Shown in pieces: positions 3,989 to 11,539 of a DNA stretch of 37,579 bases. The stretch lies in assembly GCA_016932915.1 (NCBI GenBank), contig JAFGBY010000178.1, positions 1 through 37,579 of the forward strand, written 5' to 3'. The stretch is from Acidobacteriota bacterium (GTDB lineage Bacteria; Acidobacteriota; DATKUA01; JAFGBY01). Positions within the stretch are counted from its first letter, which is position 1; the number at the start of each line of letters is the position of its first letter. Under the pieces are notes generated by a model. It did not search any database, had not been told where the DNA came from, and worked only from the letters and a program-made list of their open reading frames with translations. A program made the position numbers and the translations under genes.

Positions 3989-6115
3989 TTAATCGAAATT
4001 GTATTTCTGTAGTTCGGGAAGGTTTTCCAGTTCCTTCGCTCGGGCTTCGGTGTAGCCGAGGCGGCGGAAGTTCAGCAGGCCGCCAGGTTTATGGCAGTCC
4101 TTGCAGGTGTGGCCTTCCTTCTGTATCGCGTGGTTTATCATCAGGGTTCCCATCTGGCGCATCCAGCGCGGCTTGATGTTATCCCGGTTGCCCTCATCGA
4201 GCGGGTAGTCGGTTTTCCATTTGCCCACCCCGAAGTACGCCATGAACTCATCCATCATATATACCTTGAAAAGCCACTGGTACATACGTTTAACCATCGG
4301 GTGCTGCAGCGCGGTCTCCACGGAGAGCATCGGGTTGCCCTGCTCGAAGTATGTCTTGTAATCGAACGGGATGATCATCGCGCCGAACGGCCCGAGGTTC
4401 GCATAATCCTCGTACATCCTCGCGTTGAATACCTTGAAGGGGTAGATCTTCGAAGTCCCCAGGTTCATCACCGGGCGGAGCTTCGTCTCCACGACTTCAG
4501 CCCTTTCCCCGACAAGATCCGGATCCTGCTCGATAAAGGAATTTCCTTCCTTCAGTCCCGGCAGGGTGAGGCCCTTCACTTTGTCGTATTTCGCGATGTG
4601 ATCCATCAGCGGGTTGTATTCCGGGTTCTTGTTCGGGTTCGCGCCGAGCGCGTTGGCGAGGAAGGTGCCGTTATTGTTGAACCAGAGGTATTCGACCGCC
4701 TTGTCCATATCACCGGTGACGAGTATCTCCTTCGGATGGTAGTAACCCTCTTCTTCCACGAATACAGGCTGAGCCCAGTCGGTGAAGATGAGGTTCGATT
4801 TATGCAGCTTCGTGATGTGGCAGGTCTCGCAGGAGACCTTTGCGATATGCCCGTTCAGGATCGCTCTGGTCTTGGTGTTCTTGATATGCGGCGCCGCGGT
4901 GTGGCAGCGTTCGCAGGATACTTCTTCATTCGGCAGGTCGTTGGAAACAAGATCAGTGCCCTGCAGGCCCCTGGCGATCTTATGCCCGCGTGTGGTATGG
5001 CAGTCGATGCACTGCATACCAGCAGCGGCGTGTACATCCCACTCAGGATCGAAAGGCGTAGCCCTTTTTGCCGATGAATGTAAAAATCTTATATTTTTGT
5101 AGCCCCTGTTGTGAGCGGCTTCATTGCCTTCGAACTGGTCACCGCCCAGGTTGTGCTGGTGGCATCTCAGGCACATCTCCGCGCGCGGCTTCATAACGCC
5201 CATAGCCGCTTTCATGCTGCGGTCCTGGTTCCAGCGTTTGCCGACTCCATCATCGAAAACGTATTTATGGTTCATGTCATATGTAATCGAATGGCAGATG
5301 AGGCAGTCGATAGCCTGTTGCGCCTGGTGCGGAGTGCTCAGCCCCGGGAGCATCCTCTCGGATGGCGGCCCATATAGCCCGCCTACATGGCACTGCCCGC
5401 AGCCGACGCTTACCATATGTTCTTCGCCGTGCGCCGGTTTAGCCTTGATGAGGTCAGCCCAGCCGGTCCAGGTGAATGTACCGGTCATCCCGCAGGCGCG
5501 GTCGATCTTGCCGAGCGGTATCTTGTGCCAGCCCGCGTTTACCTTTTCGCCGTTGTAGCCGTATGTTGTGAAGCTGGAAGATGTGGAGAAGAGTTTAAAG
5601 TGGACGGAAGCAAGGACGTCATCCATCGTGCCGATTTCCTTGTAATCCCCATCATCCGTTTTTACCATCATAGTCTTATGGCACTGGAGGCATGTCTCCG
5701 GCCCCTCGTATTTACGGATTCCGTTCTCACGGAACTGCTCAATATGTTTGAGGTTCGCCTGTTCCAGGAAGCTGCCCGTCTTGAACCGGAGCTGTACGCG
5801 GTCTTCCTGTACGACCTCCTCATCCTTGTATTCGTTGGTATCTGCAAGCGCCTGTTTTTCTAGGAGTTCCGCCTGCACCTCGCGGGCAATCTCCTCGAAT
5901 TCAAGGTCGCTTACCTCAACGGAGTTCGGGTATTCCACAGTGGCGAGTTTATCGCCTGTGTAGTACCTGAAGAACGCCGGGTAAGCCCATGCGTATGCAA
6001 TATATAAAACGAATATCACGATGACGAAAATCGTCACCTTTCTTCCCCGTTTGGTCCTGGTATATTCCCTGACCGGGGAAAGTTTCCCAGCTATAAGCTT
6101 AAAAACATTCTTCAT
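3989..6115 (-). CDS. Membrane-anchored octaheme c-type cytochrome, OTR-like core
   Basis: 708 residues. An N-terminal cytoplasmic basic stretch (RTKRGRK) and one TM helix at about 29-50 anchor it with the rest outside the inner membrane. Eight CXXCH heme sites start at residues 142 (CLQCH), 239 (CGQCH), 271 (CLICH), 315 (CLRCH), 369 (CIDCH), 401 (CERCH), 429 (CETCH) and 671 (CKDCH). The order and context of sites 2-7 (CGQCHVGG; DCLICHSIT; CLRCHQHNLGGD; DVHAAAGMQCIDCHTTRGH; AAPHI; NGHIAKVSCETCHI) resemble the octaheme tetrathionate reductase family, so a catalytic reductase is plausible; the substrate is inferred, not shown. It differs from that family in its anchor, extra length and a 240-residue heme-free stretch (434-670) before heme 8. 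Last gene of an operon; its ATG overlaps the cytochrome b stop by 4 nt. Confidence 0.85.
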   Translation of the reverse strand: MKNVFKLIAGKLSPVREYTRTKRGRKVTIFVIVIFVLYIAYAWAYPAFFRYYTGDKLATVEYPNSVEVSDLEFEEIAREVQAELLEKQALADTNEYKDEEVVQEDRVQLRFKTGSFLEQANLKHIEQFRENGIRKYEGPETCLQCHKTMMVKTDDGDYKEIGTMDDVLASVHFKLFSTSSSFTTYGYNGEKVNAGWHKIPLGKIDRACGMTGTFTWTGWADLIKAKPAHGEEHMVSVGCGQCHVGGLYGPPSERMLPGLSTPHQAQQAIDCLICHSITYDMNHKYVFDDGVGKRWNQDRSMKAAMGVMKPRAEMCLRCHQHNLGGDQFEGNEAAHNRGYKNIRFLHSSAKRATPFDPEWDVHAAAGMQCIDCHTTRGHKIARGLQGTDLVSNDLPNEEVSCERCHTAAPHIKNTKTRAILNGHIAKVSCETCHITKLHKSNLIFTDWAQPVFVEEEGYYHPKEILVTGDMDKAVEYLWFNNNGTFLANALGANPNKNPEYNPLMDHIAKYDKVKGLTLPGLKEGNSFIEQDPDLVGERAEVVETKLRPVMNLGTSKIYPFKVFNARMYEDYANLGPFGAMIIPFDYKTYFEQGNPMLSVETALQHPMVKRMYQWLFKVYMMDEFMAYFGVGKWKTDYPLDEGNRDNIKPRWMRQMGTLMINHAIQKEGHTCKDCHKPGGLLNFRRLGYTEARAKELENLPELQKYNFD

Positions 6116-6753
6116 TTTTTCGGACTCCTTTTCTTAACCGTTTGACTCTCAACCGTATGGTAGCCGGTGATCATAGATTCAAGAAGCGATGTCAGTTTCT
6201 TGCCCGTAGTGGAGAGGTAGAGATGGACGATCAGGAACGTAACGGCAAGGAAACTGAACAATGTATGTATAACCGCGATAGATTTGAACGCGGAGAGATT
6301 CGATATCCATTCAATATCTTTCGTGATGCCGTAAAGGACTACACCGGATACAATCTGCACCGGCAGGATAAAGAGCATCAGGAAGAAATACGACACCTGC
6401 TGCAGTGGATTGAACTTCCTCTCCTTGCTCGCGGGATAGGGCGAATGGCCCTTATTGAAAATACCGAAGAGATAGTAGCGAGCCTGGTTGAACAGCTCTA
6501 CCGGCAACGCTTTCGTGAATCGGATGTAATATTTTATCCTCCCGGTCGTGACTTCATATATAAACCAGAACAGGAAATTCAAGAGGAACAGCATCGAAGT
6601 AATGTTGTGTACTTTCACAAGGGAAGCGAGCGAAAGGCTATCGAAGTTTTCGCTGTAGTGCATCAGGATGCCGGTCACCGCCAGAAGGATAAAGAACAAT
6701 GCGTTGAGCCAGTGCCATATTCTCTCGGGCAAGGTAATCAGGTATATCTTCAT
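6112..6753 (-). CDS. Four-helix di-heme cytochrome b subunit (FdnI/thiosulfate-reductase gamma type)
   Basis: 213 residues. It resembles the cytochrome b561-like membrane subunits of formate dehydrogenase, hydrogenase and thiosulfate reductase, which exchange electrons between the quinone pool and a periplasmic partner. Four main hydrophobic helices are visible, at about 15-33, 50-66, 121-142 and 160-180. Candidate heme b ligands are His14 (RIWHW), His32 or His49, His163 and His177, matching the family pattern of one or two His in helices 1-2 and two in helix 4. The C-terminus is basic (VKKRSPKK), consistent with a cytoplasmic end. Both junctions in the operon are 4-nt ATGA overlaps, with the heptaheme gene upstream and the octaheme gene downstream, so equimolar subunits of one complex are likely. 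Confidence 0.85.
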   Translation of the reverse strand: MKIYLITLPERIWHWLNALFFILLAVTGILMHYSENFDSLSLASLVKVHNITSMLFLLNFLFWFIYEVTTGRIKYYIRFTKALPVELFNQARYYLFGIFNKGHSPYPASKERKFNPLQQVSYFFLMLFILPVQIVSGVVLYGITKDIEWISNLSAFKSIAVIHTLFSFLAVTFLIVHLYLSTTGKKLTSLLESMITGYHTVESQTVKKRSPKK

Positions 6754-7622
6754 TTCTTTTTACCTTTCCCTTTCTTTTTTCCCATCATGATTCTGAGGAT
6801 TCCGTGGCCGGAAGCGCCCAGGAATGCAAACACAATAAGCAAGGTACCAAAGATTTCCACTAGGGAATTTCTCGTCCCGCCTACGAGATAAATCCTGGAG
6901 AGCATGGTCTCGGCGGTCGCTCTGTCAGATTCCGCCTCATCCTGAATAAGGAAAGTCGCCATCTTGTTTTCCCTGCTGTGGCACTCGGAACATTCCCTAA
7001 CTGATTTTTCCTTCTCCGGTATCAGGTGGCGCGCTGCATATCTATTAGGGTTCAACTGGATATGGCAGGCGATGCAGGGGATCTTCTCGAGGTGGAGCTG
7101 CGCCTGTGCATGCCAGGTGTGGTAAGCCTCGATATGAACCGGGGCGAGATACTTGTTGTCCTTCGGGTTCACCCCGAACTGATGGCATTTCAAGCACTGT
7201 TCGTTTCTCTCGGTCAGCTCCATATGCTTTGGTGACCTGTCCTGGTGTACATCGTGGCATTCATAGCACTGCAGGTCTTTATGGACGCTCTGTTGCAGTG
7301 AGTGTTCGATATCCCTGAAAAGGACATTCCTTTCCTTCTCATGGCATTCGAAACATGAAAGCACTGTCGCGTTTTTATGAGGATAGGTCGTTATCCCTTT
7401 GTGGCACTCGATGCATTCATGTTTTTTCCCAAGCGTGTAATGCCAGGATTGCTGGAATTTTTCCGGTGAGATGTAGAGAGAAACCGGGATACCGAGGCTG
7501 TTTTTCAGGGACGGTTTCATCTCTTTGTTCTGATGGCAGCCTGCGCAGTCCAGGGCTTGTTCAGAAAAGACTGCAACAGGCGCCATCAGTAAAAACAGGA
7601 TTAAAAAATTTGTCAGTTTCAT
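6750..7622 (-). CDS. Heptaheme c-type cytochrome with C-terminal membrane anchor
   Basis: 290 residues. A signal peptide (residues 1-20, ending AVFS) precedes seven CXXCH sites starting at Cys26, 70, 90, 119, 143, 183 and 211. Many extra His residues (H61, H102-107 region, H114, H163, H168, H171) can supply distal ligands for bis-His hemes. A C-terminal TM helix at about 253-279 contains His273 (ASGHGILRIM) and ends in a Lys/Gly tail (GKKKGKGKKK) on the cytoplasmic side. A periplasmic multiheme domain tethered this way looks like an electron relay between the cytochrome b and the octaheme protein. NrfB/NrfH or CbcA-like relays are alternatives; I see no NapC/NrfH N-terminal anchor. The ATG overlaps the arsR stop by 4 nt. 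Confidence 0.85.
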   Translation of the reverse strand: MKLTNFLILFLLMAPVAVFSEQALDCAGCHQNKEMKPSLKNSLGIPVSLYISPEKFQQSWHYTLGKKHECIECHKGITTYPHKNATVLSCFECHEKERNVLFRDIEHSLQQSVHKDLQCYECHDVHQDRSPKHMELTERNEQCLKCHQFGVNPKDNKYLAPVHIEAYHTWHAQAQLHLEKIPCIACHIQLNPNRYAARHLIPEKEKSVRECSECHSRENKMATFLIQDEAESDRATAETMLSRIYLVGGTRNSLVEIFGTLLIVFAFLGASGHGILRIMMGKKKGKGKKK

Positions 7623-7924
7623 TTACAGAAAATCTCCTTCATTTTCTGAAGTACATCTTTCAAGCGTCTATCCTTGAGGGAATACTTGATCAGGCTGCCG
7701 TCCCTGGTGGATTTCAATATTCCACGGTCACGCATAAGCCTCAGGTGTTGAGATATATTAGGCTGCGACTGGTCGCATGCGGCGGCGATGTCGTTTACGC
7801 TCATCTCCCCGTTAAGCAGTAATTCGATTATCAGGAGTCTTGTTGAATTAGCCAGGACTTGAAAACATTCAGCGGCTTTTTCGGTGTCTTGTATAATATT
7901 ATCCAGATTATCTAACAGTGCCAT
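7619..7924 (-). CDS. ArsR/SmtB-family transcriptional regulator, probable autoregulator of the cytochrome operon
   Basis: 101 residues, normal for the family. The winged helix-turn-helix is clear: LANSTRLLIIELLLNGEMSV, then recognition region DQSQPNISQHLRLMRDRGIL and wing STRDGSLIKYSL. The classical alpha-3 metal site (ELCVCDL) is absent; ELLLNGEM stands there instead. Three cysteines remain, Cys20, Cys50 and Cys100, the last in the C-terminal helix (EIFCK), where SqrR/BigR-type persulfide sensors also place a cysteine. It is the first gene of the operon, coupled by ATGA to the heptaheme gene, so it probably represses its own promoter until a chemical signal is present. Which signal is inference. 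GGAG lies 10 nt before the ATG. Confidence 0.88.
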   Translation of the reverse strand: MALLDNLDNIIQDTEKAAECFQVLANSTRLLIIELLLNGEMSVNDIAAACDQSQPNISQHLRLMRDRGILKSTRDGSLIKYSLKDRRLKDVLQKMKEIFCK

Positions 7925-8197: not shown

Positions 8198-9649
8198 ATG
8201 ATTCTTGATAAACTTTTAGATTTCACAATAAAGTCCTCAGACTTTATGTGGGGATTACAGACTATCGCGCTCCTGCTGCTTGCGGGAGTTATTTTGACTC
8301 TATTGACACGCTTTGTGCAGATCACAAAGTTAGGAAAATCAATTAAGCTGGTTCTGCTTGGGGCAGTAGGTAAGGATAAATCCAAGGACAAAGAAGGCGA
8401 TATCACACCGTTTGCCGCATTGATGACGGCGCTTGCCGCTACGGTAGGTAACGGGAATATCGCGGGCGTCGCGACTGCGATTGCCAGTGGCGGCCCCGGA
8501 GCTCCGTTCTGGATGTGGCTTTCCGGATTTTTCGGGATGGCTACCAAGTATGCTGAGGGGTACCTGGGAGTACGCTTCCGTAAGGTTGCCGAGGACGGTA
8601 CGATGGCAGGCGGCCCGATGTATTATATCCGCTATGGCCTTGGAGATAACGCATTCTCAAGATTCCTTGGCGGGATGTTCGCGATATGCGGAGGTATGGC
8701 TGCTTTACTGGGGACAGGCAATATGGCGCAATCCAATTCAATCACGCTTGGCGCGGTAGAACAGCTGAAGAAATATGGCATCATCTCTGAGTCATCCGGG
8801 ACGACTTATTCTGTTTTAATTGGTTTTGTCCTCGTGATTCTTGTCGGCATGGTCATTATCGGTGGTATTAAAAGGATTGGTGCTGTAGCGGAAAAAATTG
8901 TGCCCTTCATGATTCTTTTTTATTTTGGCGGTGCTTTGATAATTCTGATTAAATATTTCACAGCGATTCCAGCAGCTTTCGCACTGATTTTTAAATGCGC
9001 TTTTTCGTTTAAAGCTGTAGTTGGTGGGGCAGTGGGCGTAACTATTAAAGAGGCAGTCCGTTTTGGAGTTGCCAGAGGTGTTTTATCGAATGAAGCAGGC
9101 CTTGGTTCCGCATCGATAGCTCAGAGCGCAAGTAAGACCGAGAATCCGAGCGAGATGGGGCTCGTTGCCATGACAGGTGTTCTTATCGATACAATTATAG
9201 TCAATACACTGACGACCCTGTCGATTATATTAACCGGCGCATGGGTATATACCAGGGCGGCAAATTACACAGGCCCAAATCAGCTGGATAGTATTGCCCT
9301 TACTCAATATGCCTGGGATTCTGTATTTACAGGAGGCGGAGTGTTTATTGTTTTCGCCTCGCTGATGTTTGGGTTTACAACACTGATAGGCTGGTCGTAT
9401 TACGGCGAACAATGCTTTGAATATTTATTCGGCTTGCGGGCGGTCAAGCCTTACCGTCTTGTTTACATTCTATTGATCTTCTTCGGAGCGGTACTCCAGG
9501 GCAATTATATTCGTATCGTTTGGAATATCGGAGATACGGCAAACGCATTTATGGCAATACCTAACCTTATCGGGTTGATATTGCTATCAGTACTCGTTGC
9601 GCGAGAGACACGACAGGCTTTTTCAAAAAATAAATTTGAATTAGGATAG
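8198..9649 (+). CDS. Sodium/alanine (glycine) symporter, AGCS family
   Basis: 483 residues with about 11 hydrophobic helices, an inner-membrane sodium-coupled carrier for small neutral amino acids. Family signatures include FAALMTALAATVGNGNIAGVATAI with GGPGAPFWMWLSGFFGM, then KYAEGYLGVRFR and AGGPMYYIRYGL, and later GVARGVLSNEAGLGSA and FTTLIGWSYYGEQC. The ATG has AAGAAGGA in front. The LeuC-like gene starts 7 nt after its stop codon, and the LeuD-like gene follows, so amino acid uptake and the dehydratase are likely co-expressed. The exact substrate (Ala, Gly, other) cannot be read from sequence. Confidence 0.93.
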   Translation: MILDKLLDFTIKSSDFMWGLQTIALLLLAGVILTLLTRFVQITKLGKSIKLVLLGAVGKDKSKDKEGDITPFAALMTALAATVGNGNIAGVATAIASGGPGAPFWMWLSGFFGMATKYAEGYLGVRFRKVAEDGTMAGGPMYYIRYGLGDNAFSRFLGGMFAICGGMAALLGTGNMAQSNSITLGAVEQLKKYGIISESSGTTYSVLIGFVLVILVGMVIIGGIKRIGAVAEKIVPFMILFYFGGALIILIKYFTAIPAAFALIFKCAFSFKAVVGGAVGVTIKEAVRFGVARGVLSNEAGLGSASIAQSASKTENPSEMGLVAMTGVLIDTIIVNTLTTLSIILTGAWVYTRAANYTGPNQLDSIALTQYAWDSVFTGGGVFIVFASLMFGFTTLIGWSYYGEQCFEYLFGLRAVKPYRLVYILLIFFGAVLQGNYIRIVWNIGDTANAFMAIPNLIGLILLSVLVARETRQAFSKNKFELG

Positions 9650-9656
9650 ACAAAAT

Positions 9657-10898
9657 ATGAAACAAACTGCGATTGAAAAGATAATTTCAAACCATTCAGA
9701 TCATCAGGTCAAAGCTGGCGAGATTGTCTGGATGAAACTGGATGTTCGTTCCGCAAGGGATTTCGGCGGCGCGAACGTTGTCAAAAACCTCAAGACTTAT
9801 TATCCTGGCCAGCCGCTGGATGATCTAAAAAAGACCTTCTTCACTTTTGATACAGTTGTCCCGGCTAATAATATTCCGTATGCAAACAATCAGCAGATAT
9901 GCAGGGATTACGCTGAGGAGATGGGGATAAAAGTTTATGACGTAAACGCCGGGATTGGCAGTCATGTCATGATAGAAGAGGGAAGGGCGCTTCCCGGTTA
10001 TACCCTCGTCGGCACGGACAGCCACTTGAACATCTTCGGGGCAGTCGGCGCTTTTGGACAGGGTATGGGCGATCAGGATATTGCATTTGCTTTCCGCAAC
10101 GGGTTTACGTGGTTTGAAGTACCAGAGAGCATGAGGATAATTCTGAATGGTGAAATCAAATACCCGGTTAGCGCGAAAGATGTTGTCCTGGCTGTTTTAG
10201 AGAGAATAGGCTCTAAAGGCGCGCTGGGAAGGGCGATAGAATTCACAGGCAGCGTAGTGGACAGACTTGATCTTGCGGGCAGGATCACACTTGCATCAAT
10301 GGTTACCGAGATGGGCGGAATTATTGGATTAATATCTCCGAACAAAGCAATACTTGATGAACTCAAGAAGAAATCCGGCCATTACACATTGGAACCTATT
10401 GTCGCTGATGAAGGCGCTGAGTATGTTGAGACAATCGAGATGAATCTGAATGGACTTGAACCTATGATCGCGGCGCCACCGAAACCGGATAATGTCGTGA
10501 AAGTATCCTCACTGAAAAAAGTTGCTGTTGATTCCATTTTTATCGGCTCATGTACTAACGGCAGGACAGAAGATTTTAAAGTAGCTGCGGATATTCTCCG
10601 GGGCAGAAAAGTGCATCCTAAAGTAATGATGAAAATTGTACCTGCGACGAGAAGAGTATTTACCGAAATGCTCAAATTGGGAATAGTACAGGAACTGCAT
10701 GAAGCCGGCGCGATTATCTCCAACCCGGGATGCGGCGGATGCGCCAGTGGACAAATCGGGATGACCGGTAAAGGAGAAGTTCAGGTCAGCACCAGTAACA
10801 GGAACTTCCTTGGCAAACAGGGTGATGGCGAGACTTACCTTGCTTCACCAGCTGTTGCGGCAGCCTCAGCGATAACCGGCTATATAACAGCCCCATAA
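9657..10898 (+). CDS. LeuC/homoaconitase-family dehydratase, large subunit
   Basis: 413 residues, the size of the archaeal-type or anaerobic 3-isopropylmalate dehydratase/homoaconitase large subunit. These enzymes use a [4Fe-4S] cluster to isomerise or dehydrate hydroxy-di/tricarboxylic acids. Cluster ligands are Cys299 (GSCTNGR), Cys359 and Cys362 (NPGCGGCASG). The substrate-handling signatures GTDSHLNIFGAVGAFGQGMG and STSNRNFLGKQGDGETYLAS are present. The second cluster motif reads GCGGC, where archaeal LeuC usually has GCGPC. No leuA or leuB lies nearby, and the small subunit has an unusual specificity loop, so I do not call it leuC. 2,3-Dimethylmalate dehydratase is another family possibility. 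Confidence 0.88.
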   Translation: MKQTAIEKIISNHSDHQVKAGEIVWMKLDVRSARDFGGANVVKNLKTYYPGQPLDDLKKTFFTFDTVVPANNIPYANNQQICRDYAEEMGIKVYDVNAGIGSHVMIEEGRALPGYTLVGTDSHLNIFGAVGAFGQGMGDQDIAFAFRNGFTWFEVPESMRIILNGEIKYPVSAKDVVLAVLERIGSKGALGRAIEFTGSVVDRLDLAGRITLASMVTEMGGIIGLISPNKAILDELKKKSGHYTLEPIVADEGAEYVETIEMNLNGLEPMIAAPPKPDNVVKVSSLKKVAVDSIFIGSCTNGRTEDFKVAADILRGRKVHPKVMMKIVPATRRVFTEMLKLGIVQELHEAGAIISNPGCGGCASGQIGMTGKGEVQVSTSNRNFLGKQGDGETYLASPAVAAASAITGYITAP

Positions 10899-10927
10899 GC
10901 GGATGTAGAGAATACGAGGTAAATAAA

Positions 10928-11482
10928 ATGGCAGAAAAACAGAAAATATTAAAAGGCCGTATATGGCTGATGACTGATGAAAACAACACACTGATTGATG
11001 ATATAGATACAGATATGATTTTCCATAATGCGCATCTTGCGATCACCGATATTAAGGAGATGGGTCAGCATGCGTTTGGAAATCTTAAAAACTGGAAACA
11101 TTTCCCAAAAGAAGCAAAACCGGGTGATATTGTTATGGCTGGTCGGAATTTTGGTTCCGGTTCATCAAGGCAACAGGCGGTTGATTGTTTCCCTTCACTT
11201 GGAGTGACCGCGCTGATTTGTGAGTCCTATGGAGCAATCTATAAGAGGAATGCAATAAATAGCGGTTTTCCGATTGTGATAATACCGGGACTTGTAGAGC
11301 AGTTGAAGAAAAGTAAGAAAATAAAACACCTGCAGAATATTGAAATCAATCTTGAAACAGGTATCGTAAAAGATGTTGAAAGTGGAGAGATAGTCCTTAA
11401 TGGTCTGCCACTTTCACCCGTTCAGATTGATATTTATAATGTTGGGGGGCTTTTAAACCTGAGCCTCGATAACAAAGGCTAG
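10928..11482 (+). CDS. LeuD/homoaconitase-family dehydratase, small subunit
   Basis: 184 residues, the swivel-domain partner of the preceding gene, 29 nt downstream. Family signatures are DDIDTDMIF (residues 24-32) and GRNFGSGSSRQQA, then ESYGAIYKRNAINSGFPIVII. The loop that sets substrate specificity, YLVY in isopropylmalate isomerases and YLRT in methanogen homoaconitase, reads HLAI here (36-39). The usual GCGSSREHA is GSGSSRQQA. The partnership with the large subunit is certain from adjacency; the substrate is not. GAGGTAAATAAA precedes the ATG. Confidence 0.88.
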   Translation: MAEKQKILKGRIWLMTDENNTLIDDIDTDMIFHNAHLAITDIKEMGQHAFGNLKNWKHFPKEAKPGDIVMAGRNFGSGSSRQQAVDCFPSLGVTALICESYGAIYKRNAINSGFPIVIIPGLVEQLKKSKKIKHLQNIEINLETGIVKDVESGEIVLNGLPLSPVQIDIYNVGGLLNLSLDNKG

Positions 11483-11507: not shown

Positions 11508-11539
11508 AACCCCCGGCAATAAACCGGGGGTTGTTTTTT
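11508..11539. terminator. Bidirectional terminator between leuD-like gene and pilC
   Basis: AACCCCCGG (11508-11516), 7-nt loop, CCGGGGGTT (11524-11532), then GTTTTTT on the plus strand; the minus strand runs into TTTTAATTTTT. It serves the convergent dehydratase and pilus operons. Confidence 0.88.

Follow-up and report, generated by a model that had tools for sequence, protein, structure and literature searches.

The window, as the whole stretch of DNA analysed here is termed, comprises 37,579 nt of contig JAFGBY010000178.1 from an Acidobacteriota bacterium (GCA_016932915.1). The locus under study contains two intact open reading frames for the subunits of a LeuCD-family dehydratase, preceded by a transporter gene and followed by a hairpin, as listed below.

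8198..9649, + strand: AgcS-type Na+:amino-acid symporter (TIGR00835, PF01235), ending 7 nt before the LeuC start
9657..10898, + strand: large subunit, LeuC/HacA-like, domains 1-3; ORF of 413 aa; PF00330, with TIGR01343, NF001614 and TIGR02086 over cut-off
10928..11482, + strand: small subunit, LeuD-like, domain 4; ORF of 184 aa; PF00694, with TIGR02087 over cut-off
11508..11532, + strand: bidirectional, intrinsic-terminator-like hairpin closing the unit (pattern match)

Divergent from this unit, positions 3989-7924 of the window encode multihaem cytochrome proteins, a membrane protein and an ArsR-like regulator. The symporter gene lies where the preliminary description placed it, 7 nt upstream of the LeuC start; its proposed role as pathway partner did not hold up, as no homologue was found at any other fetched relative locus, and it is therefore probably a local operon partner only. 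Among NCBIfam models the pair passes only broad LeuC/HacA subfamily models, and no equivalog reaches its cut-off. The large subunit scored 342 and 200.2 bits with the LEU2/leuC equivalogs (cut-offs 610.65 and 560.25), the small subunit 91.1 and 33.5 bits with leud/leuD (245.85 and 116.25), and the pair 347.9 and 95.9 bits with the homoaconitase (HacAB) equivalogs (550 and 230), while the AcnA, AcnB, mAcn and PRK07229 equivalog models were far under their cut-offs. Annotation by the broad isopropylmalate-dehydratase/homoaconitase subfamily models would thus attribute leucine or lysine steps wrongly to genomes with such a pair.

With the window protein as query, a scan of 84,980 genomes retained 80 loci at 57-65% identity from ~25 named lineages, including Chloroflexota, Cloacimonadota, Thermoplasmatota, Heimdall- and Hodarchaeota, Acidobacteriota, Riflebacteria, Zixibacteria and KSB1. 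In a maximum-likelihood tree, 30 sampled members formed one clade (SH-aLRT 100, stem 0.77) separate from LeuC, HacA and the operon paralogue LeuC1. The LeuC-type paralogues of pair-carrying genomes are ~36-43% identical to the window type. By setting the pair apart from LeuC and HacA, the tree bears out the initial view of an unassigned LeuCD-family dehydratase; a description of the clade was not found in the literature searched. The large subunit matched 4nqy, 4kp1 and 4kp2 in the PDB. In three related genomes both subunits are fused in one polypeptide of ~600-650 aa (L035:2301-4112, L036:2078-3964 and L034), and an AlphaFold model of the L035 fusion (603 aa, mean pLDDT 91) matches 4kp1/4kp2 and full-length aconitase.

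Comparison of 88 large subunits of the window clade with 37 other LeuC/HacA-type proteins revealed five clade-specific changes at sites aligned with aconitase active-site residues. The aconitase numbering was assigned in part from PDB alignments.

9756..9758, + strand: Arg34 codon, aconitase Q72 position; Arg in 87/87 of the clade, His in 35/37 LeuC/HacA-type others
9852..9854, + strand: Thr66 codon, position of the aconitase catalytic H101; Cys, Thr or Leu in the clade, His in 37/37 others
9960..9965, + strand: Ser102-His103, H147 position; Ser or Thr in 88/88 of the clade, His in 37/37 others
10296..10298, + strand: Ser214 codon, aconitase N258 position; Ser in the clade, Asn in 37/37 others
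10728..10742, + strand: GCGGC, residues 358-362, with cluster Cys359 and Cys362 kept and Gly at the Pro361 position
10815..10817, + strand: Lys387 codon, position of the carboxylate-binding R452; Lys in 87/87 of the clade, Arg in 37/37 others

The equivalents of H101, H147, N258 and R452 are thus all replaced throughout the clade and kept in 37/37 of the others, and His103, one residue after the lost H147 equivalent, is a new invariant histidine. Retained are the equivalents of D100, D165, S166, H167, E262, N446 and R447, together with the [4Fe-4S] ligands C299, C359 and C362 (= C358, C421 and C424), invariant in 88/88 members. The GCGGC reported in place of GCGPC is present, but it leaves the cysteine ligands unchanged and alters just the intervening proline to glycine. 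According to PMC8184944, all aconitases other than AcnX have more than 15 of the 20 active-site residues in common, and protonation in aconitase falls to H101.

The small subunit was compared across 78 clade members and eight reference small subunits, with two segments of interest.

11024..11044, + strand: HN (residues 33-34), Ala35 and the HLAI loop (36-39; HLAI alone at 11033-11044)
11153..11179, + strand: GSGSSRQQA, residues 76-84; Ser79 (catalytic, Ser642 equivalent), Ser80 and Arg81 kept, Glu replaced by Gln82

These motifs read as first described. SSR, holding the Ser642 and R644 equivalents, is present in all 78 clade members, and the altered GSGSSRQQA goes beyond chance, with GSSRQ invariant in 78/78 of the clade versus GSSRE, which is highly conserved (PMC7308503), in 8/8 references. 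HLAI is not supported as a specificity marker, since positions 1, 3 and 4 of the loop vary inside the clade ([HY]L[AHT][IVE]); what stays constant is instead the HN immediately preceding the loop (78/78; P[AG] in others). The arginine of FARI corresponds to Ala103. With its three cluster cysteines and serine base kept, the enzyme should still remove and add water next to a carboxylate of a small hydroxy acid. The loss of H101 and H147, the changes of R452 to Lys and of Q72/His to Arg34, and the new His103 and His33 indicate that both the proton-donor site and the carboxylate pocket are rebuilt.

The source assembly (G000; 2.33 Mb, 178 contigs, 75.6% complete) does contain the second LeuCD copy about which the preliminary description had asked. 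It lies on a 3.8-kb contig (C137) and is 38% identical to the window type; no PF00330 protein other than those of these two pairs was found in the 75.6% complete assembly. This second pair (L024:1324-3146) has a YLTE loop and an adjoining XRE-type regulator gene. At the same completeness there was no HMGL-like (LeuA family) match, and the sole beta-decarboxylating dehydrogenase that the query recovered, and so the only candidate for leuB, is the clade-associated one on contig C42. The situation named as refuting the initial view, a sole LeuCD pair in a genome with leuA and leuB, is therefore not what this assembly shows, and a leucine role is unsupported, with the caveat of an incomplete assembly. 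That the pair is an ordinary isopropylmalate or citramalate isomerase, or a homoaconitase, with drifted motifs would suit its closest solved structures, the M. jannaschii IPMI and HACN large subunits, but is highly improbable in view of its separate clade, the separate LeuC of pair-carrying genomes, the invariant and coordinated active-site changes, and leuA and leuB not being found in the 75.6% complete assembly. The tree, together with the lack of an HMGL-like match in that assembly, led us to reject an ordinary leucine enzyme; rather than an odd-looped version of such an enzyme, the pair is a member of its own clade.

The genomic surroundings of clade members suggest a link to citrate cleavage. 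Anaerolineae operons (L081, L086 and L092) run mutase, SucC, SucD, citryl-CoA lyase (CCL), HD-domain protein, window-type pair, LeuC1 and isocitrate/homoisocitrate-type (IDH-like) dehydrogenase, and akin clusters occur in G006, G021, G034, Zixibacteria L184 and L098. The last of these holds a PRK07229-type aconitase at the place of LeuC1, with the window-type pair retained in the same operon. A Thermoplasmatota locus (L046) reads window-type pair, HD, CitDE and CitF, a Euryarchaeota locus (L127) CCL, HD and CitF, and in some archaea the pair stands without module neighbours. Beside the same pair and HD protein, different citrate-cleaving systems thus take each other's place. In the source genome the module genes HD (C58), CCL (C17), CitF (C123) and IDH-like (C42) are scattered over contigs with no single operon, and LeuC1 was not found in the 75.6% complete assembly.

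The MCM-type mutase alpha subunits near the pair (L040:5700-7340, L081:2873-4636 and other cluster-5 loci) form an unusual variant. They carry TRG[VI]QPTMY at what we take to be the site of Tyr89 of methylmalonyl-CoA mutase, where L070 has Tyr; most keep ARGTYIFPP, presumably the Arg207 region, which reads AQKSYIFPP in L093. In a Heimdallarchaeota locus (L165:7813-14080), genes for an ICDH-like protein, a 697-aa aconitase, CitD-like, CitE and CitF are consecutive, an apparent route from 2-oxoglutarate to citrate cleavage.

Co-occurrence was assessed by comparing 36 pair-carrying genomes with 29 that lack the pair, the latter all from the window's phylum. The HD-domain protein was present in 33/36 versus 1/29, CitF or CCL in 35/36 versus 0/29 (leaving uncounted a weak, partial hit to CitF in G029, E 5e-7), the IDH-like dehydrogenase at ≥56% identity in 34/36 versus 6/29, and LeuC1 in 32/36 versus 8/29. 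Within the window's phylum alone, all 11 genomes with the pair had HD, CitF/CCL and IDH-like genes, versus 1, 0 and 6 of the 29 without. Co-occurrence could partly reflect a common anaerobic life style; operon linkage is evidence independent of that confounder. The HD protein (L025:2214-2741 and orthologues; L122:656-1207 in the source genome) has a near-complete H...HD...H...H...D signature and invariant K102, E105 and R123. It had no sequence relative in the PDB, with weak fold matches only (YhaM and a Pyrococcus protein), and having no close solved relative it gives no substrate hint. The IDH-like dehydrogenase (L025:4535-5659 and orthologues; L159:6321-7442 in the source genome) has AksF2 as its nearest NCBIfam model. 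Several orthologues read SPIVRLRQ, with an extra Arg in the substrate loop. The dehydrogenase neighbourhoods in genomes without the pair yielded no pathway name.

From the clade, its residues, co-occurrence, operons and predicted fold, we infer the catalysis, substrate class and direction of the window pair as follows. The pair would be a heterodimeric [4Fe-4S] hydro-lyase forming its own subfamily of the aconitase superfamily, with a substrate or half-reaction probably unlike those of isopropylmalate isomerase, homoaconitase and aconitase. It would belong to a module of anaerobes consisting of the pair, the HD protein, the IDH-like dehydrogenase, often a second LeuCD pair, and a citrate-cleaving system (SucCD-like plus CCL, CitF plus CCL, or CitDEF), on a putative route 2-oxo acid + CO2 <-> iso-acid <-> citrate-type acid <-> acyl-CoA + oxo acid. 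We give a probability of roughly 0.55 to a new Fe-S hydro-lyase subfamily in an anaerobic citrate-cleavage module that acts on a citrate-series acid or a close homologue. Replaced catalytic residues combined with citrate-cleaving and HD partners probably indicate an undescribed step of anaerobic organic-acid metabolism. At slightly under even odds, we propose more specifically a further aconitase subfamily of Bacteria and Archaea, having lost two of three catalytic histidines, that performs an undescribed step with the HD partner in an anaerobic pathway cleaving citrate (or a citrate homologue) by interchangeable systems. The pair may be limited to a single half-reaction, as is AcnD with 2-methylcitrate; a split of half-reactions with LeuC1 is weakened by L098, where the pair is kept beside a PRK07229-type aconitase instead.

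The weightiest rival, though an unlikely one, is a hydratase of C5/C6 dicarboxylates (citramalate/mesaconate/citraconate, 2,3-dimethylmalate or maleate, DmdAB-like), with CitDEF or SucCD plus CCL serving as citramalate (citramalyl-CoA) lyase. Citramalate lyase closely resembles citrate lyase (PMC4682846), the missing Arg452 agrees with a substrate that has one fewer carboxylate, and the small-subunit family in NCBIfam is named LeuD/DmdB; yet Arg34 is gained, so that the change is more than a loss of charge. Glutamate mutase is moreover strongly present in just 1/36 genomes with the pair, and clostridial mesaconase has been assigned to class I fumarase, two points on which a methylaspartate-pathway mesaconase was rejected. 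Fewer carboxylate contacts, and a genome (G019) without a fumarase match, could also suit a fumarase or malate dehydratase on the aconitase fold. This reading is very doubtful, as the source genome has matches to both class I and class II fumarase families, which speaks against a fumarase replacement, and class I matches occur in almost every pair-carrying genome of the same phylum.

A stand-in aconitase, converting citrate to isocitrate where AcnA/AcnB are missing, would agree with the citrate-module neighbours and with the source genome, in whose 75.6% complete assembly an AcnA/AcnB-type aconitase was not found. We regard it as improbable, less so than the fumarase, because the catalytic residues of known aconitases are replaced in the clade and many genomes with the pair also carry PRK07229-type aconitase and/or LeuC1, with L098 holding both pair and aconitase in one operon. 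Such co-occurring aconitase-type genes led us to reject a simple aconitase replacement.

For the proposed citrate-cleavage hydro-lyase, the conserved partners (HD, CitF or CCL, and the isocitrate-type dehydrogenase) open the substrate to direct testing. Eight subfamilies have been listed for the aconitase superfamily (PMC8184944). It is a classic example of substrates diverging while the catalytic site stays almost unchanged. A clade in which the cluster is kept, but the protonating histidine, another catalytic histidine and a carboxylate-binding arginine are replaced, and which is fixed in uncultured anaerobes as far apart as Cloacimonadota, Anaerolineae and Heimdall-type archaea, points to a missing enzyme and probably to a missing pathway step too.

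The fold and cluster are old, and the active-site set and module match no described subfamily among those compared. DmdAB, the 2,3-dimethylmalate dehydratase of nicotinate fermentation, is a two-subunit LeuCD-type hydro-lyase and shares this general type with the pair. In the route shared by AcnD and AcnA/AcnB, two aconitase-family enzymes act and one is dehydrating only (PMC8184944); AcnD is a single chain, unlike the window pair, and no prp genes were recognised adjoining window-type pairs. Aconitase X (cis-3-hydroxyproline or phosphomevalonate dehydratase) is likewise an aconitase-fold dehydratase with replaced catalytic residues. It shares <10% identity with the remaining aconitases and differs from them in its cluster ligands (PMC8184944), in contrast to the canonical cluster site of the window pair and its ~35-40% identity to LeuC/HacA. 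LeuCD (e.g. MJ0499, 4kp1 and 4nqy; small subunit 3vba) shares the heterodimer, fold, [4Fe-4S] cysteines and Ser-Ser-Arg, and the second LeuC of the source genome is ~38% identical to the window large subunit; the window pair differs in its Arg34, Ser214, Lys387, SSRQ and HN loop, in lacking H101 and H147, and in its separate clade with no adjoining leu genes. Methanogen HacAB/AksDE (MJ1003, 4kp2; MJ1271, 2pkp) has the YLRT Arg in the loop and equivalents of H101, H147, N258 and R452, all absent from the window pair, but the architecture is the same and the IDH-like partner of the clade resembles AksF2.
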